Shown here in pieces: positions 30,776 through 35,831 of a DNA stretch of 64,000 bases. The notes below the pieces were generated by a model. The model saw only the letters and a list, made by a program, of their open reading frames with translations, was not told the origin of the DNA and did not search any database. Numbering within the stretch: position 1 is the stretch's first letter; the number at the start of each line of letters is the position of its first letter. Position numbers and translations under genes: made by a program. The stretch is from Leptolyngbya sp. CCY15150 (lineage in GTDB: Bacteria > Cyanobacteriota > Cyanobacteriia > RECH01): positions 1 to 64,000 of the forward strand of contig NZ_JACSWB010000278.1 of the NCBI RefSeq assembly GCF_016888135.1, given 5' to 3'.

Positions 30776-31159
30776 TTACATGACGCTGACTGAATAGGCA
30801 CGAATGGCTTTATCTACAGTTGCAATCGTCAAACCATTTTGCAAGGCTTGACAGATAAGCATTCTGTCAAATGGATCGCGATGTAACGGTGGCAGTTTAG
30901 CCAGTTGAGTCACACTACTTTCATCAAGAGGAAGGCTGGCAATTTGATGGCGATCACGCTGTTCGGGTAAGTACGTTGCAGGATGTTCCGGCAGTGGTAG
31001 CTTGCTTAATTGGTATTTGACAATTGCTTCCCAAACTGAAATTGCGCTCAGATAGACCTCATTGTCTGGATCACGAATTGCATCCCGAACATCCATGGAC
31101 AACTGACTATCACCACTGATAAACCACAGGAATATGTGTGTATCGAGCAGGATTTTCAT
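30776..31159 (-). CDS. PIN-domain toxin (VapC-like)
   Basis: 127-residue ribonuclease-type toxin. The PIN acidic residues are visible: LLDTHIFLWF (Asp), AISVWEAIVKYQL (Glu), DPFDRMLICQAL (Asp), and TIATVDKAI (Asp). The start overlaps the antitoxin stop by four bases (ATGA-type junction), as expected for a toxin-antitoxin operon. Likely cleaves RNA when freed from its partner. The pair sits at the left edge of the Gly-Asp repeat region. Confidence 0.9.
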   Translation of the reverse strand: MKILLDTHIFLWFISGDSQLSMDVRDAIRDPDNEVYLSAISVWEAIVKYQLSKLPLPEHPATYLPEQRDRHQIASLPLDESSVTQLAKLPPLHRDPFDRMLICQALQNGLTIATVDKAIRAYSVSVM

Positions 31160-31398
31160 GTGCCCTCAAATACACTCAAAATCTCTTCTGGCAAAGGTGC
31201 ATCAAAATCGTCGGGGACAGTGAACTTGCCAGCACATAAGCCAAAGGGTCGTAGCTGCTTACTGCTCGACGAGATGGGTCTCAGTTCAGCGATCGCCTTC
31301 TCTGCTTGAACGATGATAAAAGTTTCACCTTCTTCTACTTGACGCATGTACTTTGAAGGGTCGCGTAGAAGTTCATCAACGGTAACACTCAACATCAA
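31156..31398 (-). CDS. Antitoxin of the Phd/YefM type
   Basis: 80 residues starting MMLSVTVDELLRDPSKYMRQVEEGE, then TFIIVQAEKAIAELRPI, the Phd/YefM fold that binds DNA and represses its own operon; the C-terminal tail (PFGLCAGKFTVPDDFDAPLPEEIL) is of the form that neutralises PIN toxins. ATG 31398 or 31395. Upstream is 275 bases without a gene. Confidence 0.88.
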   Translation of the reverse strand: MMLSVTVDELLRDPSKYMRQVEEGETFIIVQAEKAIAELRPISSSSKQLRPFGLCAGKFTVPDDFDAPLPEEILSVFEGT

Positions 31399-31674: not shown

Positions 31675-34170
31675 TTATGAGAAAGAGCGATCGCCCTTCA
31701 ATACGTCAAAGATAAGATGAACACGCCAGTCGCTGGATTCATTATAGGCTTCGTGGGCTGCCTTGTTGTTGAACCACCACAGTTCTCCTTCCTGCATACG
31801 CACCCACTCATCTCCCGCACCAAGGACACTTCCTGCCTCGCTCCTTAAAACAAGATGGTAGCGATCGCGTACCCGGTAATAGTCCCCATGGTCAATATGG
31901 CGATAGACTCGACCATAGGGAGCTAATCGCACCACCGTCACTCGCCCTAGTTCGCCACCGATAGATGCGGCAAAATTCTCTGTCCATCCTAATATCTTCG
32001 GAAAGTGCTTGGCCATGGCAGTGCAGCGGCTCTCATGGACGTCGTTGCTGTTGGTTGCACCAGGAGGGAGCGGTTTGACGGCACTACGTAGATAAATAGA
32101 GTTGGTTTCACGCTGCACGTTCACATGGTCTTGACGGCTCGTGTCGCGGAGCCAGTAGTGGGCATTGGCATCAAGTTCAACGAGAAGTGGGCGTAGATCA
32201 ACGGTGGCATCGAGCAACTGGAACTGCTGTAAGTGCGATCGCGCTTCACCTTCAGCAATAGTTCTTGGGGTTTCTTGGGGGGTGTCCATCGATGGAGATC
32301 TGCCCGATATCTTATCCTGAACGGTAATCTGGACAGAATCTCTAAGACTATTCCAGTACTCTGATGTGTCGTCGATTAACCTAGGAGTGGTAGCTTGGGA
32401 AAAGGTGGGGCATTGCATCAGTTTTAGCAATGCCATCAGGCAGTGCTGCACGTTATCGACCCGAATTACATTGTCGTATACCGTTGTGCGGATGCCACCA
32501 TGTACGAAGGACGGCTTCGATATATAAAACAGATCGATTTCATCTCGAAATTGCAGTTGACGAATACTCCGCAACCCTCGCCAGATAGACTGTTGATAGC
32601 ATTGAGCTCGGTGAATATCTTGGGTTTGAACCGCGAGATGGTAGGCATCTACTAGACCTTCTAAGTAGACCCCTGTTGATGACGCATGGGGTGGCCCATA
32701 CTCAGGATGCTTAGGATTATGGAATCGCCCCTGCACATCGGCATAGCGCACCCCATCCCATTGCTGCATGGGTAAGAGCCAGTCGTTCATCTCCATGATG
32801 CAGTCAAGGAACTGGCGATCGCCCGTTTCTTGATAGAGCAGAGCATAGGCTTGGGTGTGCCAGGGAATAAAGGCCGGGTTGCGGTGCTGCCGATGCCAGG
32901 CTCGATAGTAGTGAAAGCTGGTGTAACACCGCTCTAGTAAATCGGCGTCATGGGTACGCTGATACAGGGATGCCCAAAACAGCAGGGCTTCTCCAGGGTA
33001 AAAGTTTTGATTATCGTTGCGATCGCTGGGTTTATAAAAGGTGCGAAATGATCCATCAGGTTGCCAAAGATGTTCGATCGTATGGCAGAGCGATGAGAAG
33101 ATGTCAGTATAGAGAGAGGGTATGGTTAGAGATGGGCTTCCTTTCTCTTCTGTGTCGCCAGATTCCAAAATGGCTAGGGCAGCCAGAGCGATCGCCCCCA
33201 ATTTCACCTTGCCGTCATATTCTACGAGTCCCAACGTTTCTTCAGCATGATAAAACTGCTTGAGGTTGTAATTGAGATTATGGCGCGCTAGCGCCCAATG
33301 CGTGTCTTGTTGGGTAAAGCGCGCATAGCGGATCAGACACAGCGTCGCCATGAATTGACGGATCAGGTTATTGGCTGCAGATTCGTCGCCTCGACTGGGA
33401 AAGTATTTATAGACCATGCGACCATCCATCTGCACCTGTCGCACCATCCATTGCCCCATGCAGCGGGTCATATCTGCCAAGACATCACCGCTTAGGGTTT
33501 CTAGGGGAACGATGCGGTTGCCTCGATGCAGGGTTGTGACCATCACTTGGGGTGTCAGGCGAATCAGAAGCTGGCGGGCTTCGAATGCCTGAATCAGTCC
33601 GCCTTTGCGAATGAAGGTCTGATCTGAAATAGACTCCTGATCGAGCACCTGTTGAAATGCTTTCTGGAAGCTGAGGTTAGCCGCAATCATGCGAGTGGGG
33701 CTGTAGCGGTAGACGCGATCCTGATACTGCACTTCGATGCCGCGAATGCCGCGATGGATATTGGCAAACACCCGATCAAACTCTGCGATCGCTACCCATC
33801 GATAGTTATGGGTCAGACAGAGTTCAATCGTATCAATGCCAGATGTTTTGGCGTGATCTAGGGTATCAGTCTTGGAAGAATTGGAGGCGATTAAGGAGGC
33901 GATCGCCTGCTCCACAACGCCCTCGACCATCTGCTCTAGGTCGGTGTCATAACGCCAATAGGCCTGTTGCAACTGTCCACCTTTGCGGAGCCCTACATAG
34001 GTTGGCCCTAGGCAAGCAATGGGCTGTCCTAAATAAGGTTGCTCGGTAAGCACTGCCTGTATGAGGGTAGCGATCGCATCATGCTCAGCACTCACGACAT
34101 TGTAGGATGCTGGCGTTTTAAGGACTGGCCTATCAAGATGAGGGCAATGATCTGAAGCTAAATAAGTCAT
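31675..34170 (-). CDS. Multi-domain protein with aspartyl/asparaginyl beta-hydroxylase-like C-terminus
   Basis: 831 residues. The C-terminal region (about 650-826) matches the Asp/Asn beta-hydroxylase family of 2OG-Fe(II) enzymes: YGRVYRHIDHGDYY (H758, D760 or H761, D763), RDRYHLVL, GELWWFNNKAAHEAYN (H806) and SDWRVHLIFDVL (R816 for 2-oxoglutarate). Residues about 260-590 are repeated helix pairs (HWALARHNLNYNLKQFYHAEE, NFYPGEALLFWASLYQ, FIPWHTQAYALLYQETGD), like an alpha/alpha toroid of glycosidase or C5-epimerase type. Residues 20-230 are unclassified, perhaps distantly AMMECR1-like. AAAGGAG is seven bases before ATG 34170. It follows two Gly-Asp-repeat genes and is the natural candidate to hydroxylate their aspartates, which is inference. 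No signal peptide, so it acts in the cytoplasm. Confidence 0.75.
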   Translation of the reverse strand: MTYLASDHCPHLDRPVLKTPASYNVVSAEHDAIATLIQAVLTEQPYLGQPIACLGPTYVGLRKGGQLQQAYWRYDTDLEQMVEGVVEQAIASLIASNSSKTDTLDHAKTSGIDTIELCLTHNYRWVAIAEFDRVFANIHRGIRGIEVQYQDRVYRYSPTRMIAANLSFQKAFQQVLDQESISDQTFIRKGGLIQAFEARQLLIRLTPQVMVTTLHRGNRIVPLETLSGDVLADMTRCMGQWMVRQVQMDGRMVYKYFPSRGDESAANNLIRQFMATLCLIRYARFTQQDTHWALARHNLNYNLKQFYHAEETLGLVEYDGKVKLGAIALAALAILESGDTEEKGSPSLTIPSLYTDIFSSLCHTIEHLWQPDGSFRTFYKPSDRNDNQNFYPGEALLFWASLYQRTHDADLLERCYTSFHYYRAWHRQHRNPAFIPWHTQAYALLYQETGDRQFLDCIMEMNDWLLPMQQWDGVRYADVQGRFHNPKHPEYGPPHASSTGVYLEGLVDAYHLAVQTQDIHRAQCYQQSIWRGLRSIRQLQFRDEIDLFYISKPSFVHGGIRTTVYDNVIRVDNVQHCLMALLKLMQCPTFSQATTPRLIDDTSEYWNSLRDSVQITVQDKISGRSPSMDTPQETPRTIAEGEARSHLQQFQLLDATVDLRPLLVELDANAHYWLRDTSRQDHVNVQRETNSIYLRSAVKPLPPGATNSNDVHESRCTAMAKHFPKILGWTENFAASIGGELGRVTVVRLAPYGRVYRHIDHGDYYRVRDRYHLVLRSEAGSVLGAGDEWVRMQEGELWWFNNKAAHEAYNESSDWRVHLIFDVLKGDRSFS

Positions 34171-34222: not shown

Positions 34223-34561
34223 TTAATCGTCGTACCAGCCGTCACCATCGCCGTCACCGTCCCCATCACCGTCTCCGTCCCCATCACCGTCTCCATCTCC
34301 ATCTCCATCTCCATCTCCATCTCCATCTCCATCCCCGTCCCCGTCCCTATCTCCACTACTGATGAGTCGTGTGGGTTCGGTCATAGCAGAATTGCTCTGA
34401 ACCATGATGGTCTGGGTCTGATCCAGAGACGAAGCGTCTGCAACCGCCAGATCAACATTGCGATCGCTCTCCTCTACTGAGAGAGCAGCCTGTTCTAGGG
34501 CCCGTGCAGTTGCCACACTAGATAATGATGCCAACACTAGCAAGAGTAATAACCGTTGCAT
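34223..34561 (-). CDS. Exported protein with C-terminal (Gly-Asp)17 tail
   Basis: 112 residues. A Sec signal peptide is clear (MQRLLLLLVLASLSSVATARA), followed by about 47 polar residues and then SSGDRD, 17 uninterrupted Gly-Asp pairs (residues 74-107) and the end GWYDD. ATG 34561 is chosen because GGAG lies eight bases upstream; an ATG six bases earlier and the open frame to 34705 are less likely. The tail would carry some 20 carboxylates and bind divalent metal. It is encoded by hexanucleotide repeats, 53 bases before the hydroxylase gene. No family recognised. Confidence 0.7.
   Translation of the reverse strand: MQRLLLLLVLASLSSVATARALEQAALSVEESDRNVDLAVADASSLDQTQTIMVQSNSAMTEPTRLISSGDRDGDGDGDGDGDGDGDGDGDGDGDGDGDGDGDGDGDGWYDD
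34241..34354 (-). repeat. Hexanucleotide repeat encoding Gly-Asp
   Basis: Nineteen six-base units (GGNGAY on the coding strand), one altered to AGGGAC (Arg-Asp). Seven consecutive units at 34289-34330 are dominated by the identical form GGAGAT, while others differ at third positions. The identical block points to recent expansion or slippage; the varied units show selection for the Gly-Asp protein sequence. Confidence 0.85.
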
Positions 34562-34681
34562 AACCATGTCTCCGCTTTTAGATTGTGAATGTCTGCCTGA
34601 TCCCGCTTTTGCCACATGGGGACATCCTGATGAATTCTCGTCATTGCAGCTCACGATATCCGACGCAAGAATCAGGGTTTC

Positions 34682-34761: not shown

Positions 34762-35373
34762 TTAATCTAAATCAGCCCGTGTGATGGAAGTTGCATCAAC
34801 GCCCAGCATGGTTGCAACTCGGCTCCTATTGGCAAGAACTAGGGTGTTGTTCCCCTGCTGCCGAAATACCAGATCGTTAAACTCTAGACGACCGCCAATG
34901 CCTAGTTCGTCTACTCCATCCTGAAAATCGCGGATGATATCATTACCGTTGCTTTCCAGGACAAATGTGTCTCGGCCACGACCACCAATGAGGATATCCC
35001 TTCCAGCTCCGCCACGCAGATCATCATTGCCGTCACCACCGCGCAACGTGTCGTTGCCATTGTTGCCGAAGAGGTCGTCGTCACCGGCTCCACCCACTAA
35101 GATATCGTTGCCGTTACCGCCGAAGAGATCATCATCGCCTCCAAGACCAAATAGGCGATCGTTTCCTCCCCCTCCTCGAATATCATCAGACCGTCCGGTG
35201 CCGCGAATCACATTGTTGCGATTATCTCCAAAGAAGTCGCCACCGTCCCCATCGCCATCACCGTCCCCATCGCCATCACCGTCGCCGTCGCCGTCCCCAT
35301 CACCGAAAAAGAACAAGGTTCTTGACACACTTTCATCTTCAAAAGCATCGCTTAGCGTTAATATATCTTTCAT
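34762..35373 (-). CDS. RTX calcium-binding protein with N-terminal (Gly-Asp)10
   Basis: 203 residues. A 23-residue start (MKDILTLSDAFEDESVSRTL, then FFF) leads into ten Gly-Asp pairs, GGDFFGDN, and about seven RTX nonapeptides of the form GGxGxDxLx (GGNGNDILV, GGAGDDDLF, GGDGNDDLR), which bind calcium in a beta-roll. A C-terminal capping region (DTFVLESNGNDIIRDFQDGVDEL) ends the protein. No Sec signal; RTX proteins normally leave by type I secretion, but no transporter gene is nearby. AAGGAG is nine bases before ATG 35373; an earlier ATG at 35394 would include that site. The short N-terminus before the repeat could serve as a recognition leader, which is speculation. Confidence 0.85.
   Translation of the reverse strand: MKDILTLSDAFEDESVSRTLFFFGDGDGDGDGDGDGDGDGDGDGGDFFGDNRNNVIRGTGRSDDIRGGGGNDRLFGLGGDDDLFGGNGNDILVGGAGDDDLFGNNGNDTLRGGDGNDDLRGGAGRDILIGGRGRDTFVLESNGNDIIRDFQDGVDELGIGGRLEFNDLVFRQQGNNTLVLANRSRVATMLGVDATSITRADLD
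35245..35304 (-). repeat. Hexanucleotide repeat encoding (Gly-Asp)10
   Basis: Ten six-base units GGNGAY within the RTX gene, with mixed third positions. Same coding pattern as 34241-34354, but more diverged between units. Confidence 0.85.
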
Positions 35374-35522: not shown

Positions 35523-35831
35523 TCATGCTCGGCAAAGAGCTAATCCGTCGCTAGTTGTGATGGAGAACGCATCAAAGTCACGAAGCTCAAATTCCCCAGT
35601 TACCGTGAGGCGATCGCCCACAGACACATAGCTAGCAGTATGGTCACCGCACAGATCCCACGAATCGACTCGAAGGACACGGTCACCTGCATTCAGGCGA
35701 AAGCCGTCTTCCCAAACCCGCTCTACGGTGCCGGTAAACGAGCCGCTGCTTTGAGCCTGGATGGTGGATGCGATGCCAACGGCAACCAGGCTGCTGACAA
35801 AAATTGAACCAACTGCGAATAATTTCATCAT
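35523..35831 (-). CDS. Small secreted OB-fold-like protein
   Basis: 102 residues: a signal peptide (MKLFAVGSIFVSSLVAVGIASTIQA, cleaved near AQS) and a compact beta-rich domain (FTGTVERVWEDGFRLNAGDRVLRVDSWD ... VGDRLTVTGEFELRDFDAFSI) with two cysteines. The strand pattern fits a bacterial OB fold such as the YgiW/BOF or DUF5666 types, which often sit next to two-component systems. Start at 35831 or the adjacent ATG 35828. The promoter region carries three direct repeats (35927-35959), suggesting control by the neighbouring response regulator. Confidence 0.75.
   Translation of the reverse strand: MMKLFAVGSIFVSSLVAVGIASTIQAQSSGSFTGTVERVWEDGFRLNAGDRVLRVDSWDLCGDHTASYVSVGDRLTVTGEFELRDFDAFSITTSDGLALCRA

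Follow-up and report, generated by a model that had tools for sequence, protein, structure and literature searches.

Several described systems share single features with the locus considered here. In human AspH, a PF05118-type 2-oxoglutarate (2OG) oxygenase stands C-terminal to a helical TPR domain, and this TPR domain is required to hydroxylate EGF domains (PMC6817910). As a peptide modification, β-hydroxylation of Asp is known in the graspetide pathway through SmaO, as cited in PMC13097080. Among α/α toroid enzymes, the cellobiose 2-epimerase/AGE superfamily, GH76 and squalene-hopene cyclase are the nearest in fold, as detailed below. For the AMMECR1 family (PF01871), no description of a biochemical role was found in the literature searched, nor was any publication on AMMECR1-toroid fusions or on the modification of poly(Asp-Gly) tracts, which are usually regarded as inert low-complexity linkers. 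The gene neighbours of an 831-residue cyanobacterial protein and of its relatives point to an undescribed enzyme family that would chemically mature such tracts.

This protein is encoded in the window, the whole 64,000-nucleotide stretch of Leptolyngbya sp. CCY15150 DNA that was analysed, and its ATG is preceded by a ribosome-binding-like sequence (AAAGGAG). Two same-strand ORFs directly upstream of its gene encode exported proteins with (Asp-Gly)18 and (Asp-Gly)10 tracts. The features of the locus, in window coordinates, are:

31675..34170, minus strand: 831-residue three-domain protein (AMMECR1-like domain, α/α toroid and Asp hydroxylase), from ORF, Pfam and AlphaFold2 model
33517..34110, minus strand: AMMECR1-like domain, residues ~21-218, from the fold of the domain modelled alone
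32389..33507, minus strand: α/α toroid, residues ~222-594, from superposition on cellobiose 2-epimerase and conserved residues
31693..32238, minus strand: Asp/Asn β-hydroxylase domain, residues ~645-826, from PF05118 (53.8 bits) and residues invariant in 31/31 domains
34223..34567, minus strand: 114-residue protein with a Sec-type signal peptide and a C-terminal (Asp-Gly)18, likely substrate
34238..34345, minus strand: (Asp-Gly)18 tract, with 7 different codon-pair units among 18
34762..35373, minus strand: 203-residue RTX protein with an N-terminal (Asp-Gly)10 (PF00353, 68 bits), likely substrate
35242..35301, minus strand: (Asp-Gly)10 tract, with 4 different codon-pair units
35523..35831, minus strand: 102-residue secreted small protein, phmmer 2e-63 to L135:312-890

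The three-part architecture put forward in the original prediction is real, and is borne out by Pfam, by the AlphaFold2 model and by structure matches. Structure prediction and profile searches run for each part assigned all three, the N-terminus and the toroid by fold and the hydroxylase by Pfam. PF05118 (Asp_Arg_Hydrox) is the sole Pfam match of the protein (residues 715-824, 2.6e-14, 53.8 bits for a gathering cut-off of 22.6). The model, based on an alignment of 39 relatives, displays a mean pLDDT of 82.8, with a low-confidence linker (~617-635) between the toroid and the hydroxylase. No signal peptide is evident on the enzyme.

The N-terminal domain, previously left unclassified (20-230), adopts in its model an AMMECR1 fold at residues ~21-218, newly recognised here. 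When this domain is folded alone (pLDDT 83.0), its top three distinct PDB matches are 1vaj (Z 11.4), 1zq7 (Z 8.3) and 1wsc (Z 7.9), the next unrelated match being found at Z 4.5. By sequence, a bona fide AMMECR1 protein (PF01871) of a related genome retrieves 1vaj and 1zq7, and both are therefore AMMECR1 structures; 1wsc belongs to the same family. Unlike AMMECR1 proteins, the window domain has no PF01871 match at E<=1, lacks an RGC-type motif and is fused to a toroid. A comparison of the N-terminus with a single AMMECR1 sequence by hhalign is not significant (probability 2%), so that a shared fold is assigned by structure only and family membership is unproven. Neither the N-terminal nor the middle region retrieved a useful PDB match by sequence, whether by phmmer with a single sequence or with the A4 and A3 profiles.

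The middle region, suspected to be toroid-like at residues 260-590, is confirmed as such: residues 222-594 superimpose best on cellobiose 2-epimerase 9l8i (Z 28.6, 333 aligned residues, 3.6 Å, VIA-align), followed by GH76 and squalene-hopene cyclase, all α/α toroids. Compared with the AGE superfamily and other toroid enzymes, the fold is common over ~330 residues; in contrast, identity is 9-15%, the 831-residue protein has no match at E<=1 to PF07221 (AGE family), and gene neighbours point to a protein substrate. The fold cannot discriminate by itself between a glycosidase, an epimerase and a cyclase; as to the earlier suggestion of such activities, the fold stands and the activity is without support, the protein matching no sugar-enzyme family in Pfam. 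Residues kept in at least 95% of the clade described below and in at least 5/6 distant relatives include R216, Y254, P258, N268, R271, Y391, E394, W437, D478, E504, R570, D572 and H576. This conservation of polar residues into distant relatives suggests an active site. Regarding the His pair of the AGE/cellobiose 2-epimerase cavity, H438, H495 and H576 are kept in the clade, but of these only H576 is kept in distant relatives. A LanC-like Cys/Cys/His zinc chemistry is ruled out, as there is no Cys among the residues conserved in at least 95% of the clade.

The C-terminal domain, anticipated as hydroxylase-like at residues 650-826, matches PF05118 above cut-off and spans ~645-826. Its iron and 2-oxoglutarate ligands are intact, as expected: the iron triad H758-x-D760...H806 and the 2OG-site residue R816 do not vary among the 31 AspH domains aligned. 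Two candidates, D760 and D763, had been retained for the acidic ligand; position 763 is variable (Asp in 6/31, Glu in 17/31), D760 is invariant, and the acidic ligand is thus D760. The iron site of human AspH, in contrast, is formed by two His, and this enzyme acts on EGF domains and carries a TPR domain, where the window protein has toroid and AMMECR1-like domains and a presumed DG-tract substrate. The domain probably β-hydroxylates Asp.

Full-length fusions were detected by a genome-contig scan in cyanobacteria only (L003-L005, whose best segments are 60-64% identical), and DG-tract genes adjoin them; together with these and the window protein, L043, from the Cyanobacteriota sample, is the fifth fusion. 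The AMMECR1-like domain and toroid, hereafter the core, are found without hydroxylase in Rhodobacterales and Cellvibrio (L006-L012, L032; 43-48% identity), and separate hydroxylase domains are spread over many phyla (L013-L041). PF05118 is absent from 7/7 Rhodobacterales core genomes (G295-G301); as the core is kept there without it, conservation lies with the core, to which AspH was added as a module. In a tree of 36 toroids, the window protein belongs, with proteobacterial members, to a clade of 23 rows that hold 22 different sequences (support 99/98). Among the hydroxylases, the closest separate relatives (L013-L016; Acidobacteria and related MAGs) are fused to a phosphoribosyltransferase-like and a PQQ/β-propeller-like region (by eye), and a cyanobacterial protein (L049:1288-3294) possesses a PF05118-like domain at its N-terminus and a sulfotransferase-like C-terminal part (by eye).

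In the window, the (DG)18 protein ends soon after its tract, its stop codon lying 52 bp upstream of the hydroxylase gene, and counterparts with a similar signal peptide lie directly upstream in L003, L004 and L043. The RTX protein harbors three stretches of PF00353 nonapeptide repeats (68 bits for a cut-off of 23) and has DG-bearing homologues in L003 and L135. The 102-residue protein is a probable member of the locus: in Cyanothece sp. SIO2G6 (L135), its homologue, duplicated, is found ahead of the genes for the DG-RTX protein and the toroid. PF22807 (TrAA12) matches on the DG proteins are of low complexity and were ignored. Of these window proteins, neither DG protein has a double-Gly leader or a peptidase transporter beside it, and the window does not have the layout of a RiPP cluster. 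A DG-RTX paralogue in L003 (6486-7196) carries poly-Asp in place of the DG tract, which suggests that the D-rich character matters. Directly downstream of the hydroxylase gene, a PIN-domain toxin and a Phd/VapB-like antitoxin (30776-31398, minus strand) probably form an unrelated toxin-antitoxin pair.

Beyond the window, a DG-rich exported-protein gene is present in the same locus as the core in 16/22 clade members (window, L003, L004, L043, L135/L005, L008, L010, L011, L132/L012, L133, L152, L205-L207, L209, L210), the L005 and L135 contigs being two ends of one gene, counted once. In two others (L009, L166) the DG gene lies at another site of the genome, in a context that includes or fits type I secretion genes; three loci (L006, L007, L208) are cut by contig ends. 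In the last, from Cellvibrio (L032), a Pro-Asn/Gly-rich repeat lies beside the core, and no DG run was found in a gene that is partly masked. The DG partners are diverse: a BapA-type adhesin in L008, L010, L011 and L132, an RTX-like protein with (DG)89 in L209, a subtilase with (DG)24 plus poly-Asp in L133, a tract at the contig end in L210 and, by direct translation, PEP-CTERM-like proteins with degenerate DG tracts upstream of the core in L205-L207. The gene of a distant toroid (27% identity; G172, locus L061) is located immediately after that of an adhesin containing three DG tracts, and in genome G593 tract and core are far apart. The proximity of other oxygenases (2OG-FeII_Oxy_3, PhyH) to the core may be due to chance. 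In Thioclava, a Mur-ligase-family gene divergently adjoins the toroid gene (L132:13720-15396, L151:12216-13727). In LEGE 07170, an alkaline phosphatase and a PhoD-like phosphatase (L138:1891-5586, L139:3977-6529) have linkers of (DG)6 and (DG)10 that precede an RTX domain, their genes being distant from the core gene of the same genome.

The locus on a Rhizobium lusitanum plasmid (L152) has a RiPP-like layout. Its DG partner is a peptide with a double-Gly leader (...LEEELNQVAGG|DGDGDGDGDGDGDGDDDGGGD...) and a (DG)7 tract as its core segment, and its neighbours encode a radical SAM enzyme, the toroid, HlyD and a C39-peptidase ABC transporter, with a 2OG oxygenase nearby. The double-Gly leader, repetitive core segment, radical SAM enzyme and peptidase transporter are shared with RiPP clusters that use C39-peptidase transporters. 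Unlike graspetide and RiPP systems, the window has no graspetide ligase, and the candidate DG substrates are mostly large exported proteins. The region L152:8680-13173 of this conjugative plasmid is an uncharacterised RiPP-like cluster, which also includes a 253-residue protein without Pfam match.

At the genome level, DG runs, searched at the nucleotide level as (GAYGGN)6, are present in 10/12 core-bearing genomes vs 0/27 genomes with a related hydroxylase in which no core was found (Fisher 1e-7); these 12 and 27 genomes, identified through similarity, do not constitute independent samples, and a cautious count is 9/12, G296 contributing no more than a (DG)6 run plus a microsatellite. An association through AspH alone is rejected, as none of those 27 genomes has a (DG)6 run; an apparent AspH-only exception, G320, carries the core next to a DG gene. 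In other genomes, long DG runs are rare: among 292 Cyanobacteriota, a run is found in both core-bearing genomes (G000, G172) vs 2/290 others and, among 293 Rhodobacterales, for runs of at least 8, in 2/2 vs 7/291. No core is detectable in any of these seven Rhodobacterales, of which five have near-perfect nucleotide repeats. The runs of G601 and G477, near-perfect microsatellites in implausible reading frames, were rejected as real tracts, whereas G462 and G530 possess real DG tails without a detectable core. Small exported proteins with C-terminal DG tails (L168:8203-8793, L169:8286-8792), in Rhodobacterales without detectable core, may be acted on by another modifier, or by none. Adjacent to the core, most tracts combine 2 to 7 kinds of synonymous unit, which would be expected if it is the protein repeat that is maintained. 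DG-tract genes accompany the core in Cyanobacteria and Proteobacteria, with or without hydroxylase, and the original idea of a repeat substrate receives strong genomic support.

Around stand-alone hydroxylase relatives, a secreted subtilase of the S8 family, with a linker rich in Asp and Gly, is encoded at a distance of up to about 7 kb in 6/28 loci. These six represent two or three lineages, and the control, small and partly contaminated by core loci, is not significant, so that the subtilase-AspH link is suggestive only. The N-terminal linkers of the subtilases (L019, L023, L026, L029, L036, L038) consist of GDD[VTA] repeats, DN repeats and poly-Asp, and some are accompanied by sigma/anti-sigma-like genes.

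The 831-residue protein is, on balance, likely a cytosolic maturation enzyme for the poly(Asp-Gly) tracts of exported proteins, although association is not proof of a substrate. The core would belong with DG tracts, probably bind them and probably have an independent catalytic activity. One cyanobacterial lineage has it fused to a 2-oxoglutarate/Fe(II) oxygenase, which most likely β-hydroxylates Asp of the tract. Modification would precede export because the enzyme has no evident signal peptide; the signal-peptide protein would then leave by Sec and the RTX protein by type I secretion. The product would be a hydroxylated polyanionic linker or tail, probably metal-binding. More tentatively, the core could found a hitherto undescribed class of poly(Asp-Gly) maturases, with its own backbone or side-chain chemistry, acting in RiPP-like peptides and large surface proteins, to which cyanobacteria fused an Asp β-hydroxylase.

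The toroid could instead be an epimerase- or glycosidase-like carbohydrate enzyme acting on surface-protein glycans or exopolysaccharide, with DG tracts merely marking the surface adhesins of the same operons. Its best folds are sugar epimerases and GH76, and among distant relatives L048 attains the Pfam cut-off for C5-epim_C and L059 that for GH127; this reading is nevertheless unlikely, since adjacency tracks the DG tract itself across small tails, RTX proteins, BapA-type adhesins, a subtilase, PEP-CTERM-like proteins and a double-Gly-leader peptide, the R. lusitanum neighbours are peptide-maturation genes, and the window protein is without a Pfam sugar-enzyme match. About equally improbable is a core that modifies nothing and serves as a cytosolic holdase or secretion chaperone for polyanionic low-complexity tracts, the fused AspH being the only catalyst. 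The helical TPR domain of human AspH is such a substrate binder (PMC6817910), and in Rhodobacterales the tracts occur with the core but without any other evident modifying enzyme; yet the active-site-like polar cluster, conserved in distant relatives, exceeds the needs of simple-repeat binding, and in R. lusitanum the core sits among RiPP-type enzymes.

That the hydroxylase uses small molecules such as free amino acids, the DG genes being coincidental neighbours, appears very improbable. The PF05118 family includes free-amino-acid hydroxylases too, and the top Foldseek match is L-proline cis-4-hydroxylase, but the domain is fused to the DG-associated core in 5/5 cyanobacterial members, and the link between core and DG tracts holds without AspH.

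If the preferred reading, a dedicated enzyme family for DG tracts, is true, bacterial surface proteins would contain, in these tracts, a segment of modified biopolymer. Asp-Gly bonds isomerize readily, and modified tracts might resist this or bind metal. The AMMECR1 fold would also gain a testable bacterial context, with a candidate substrate that can be named. Should the core have its own chemistry, it would represent a new class among protein and peptide modification systems.
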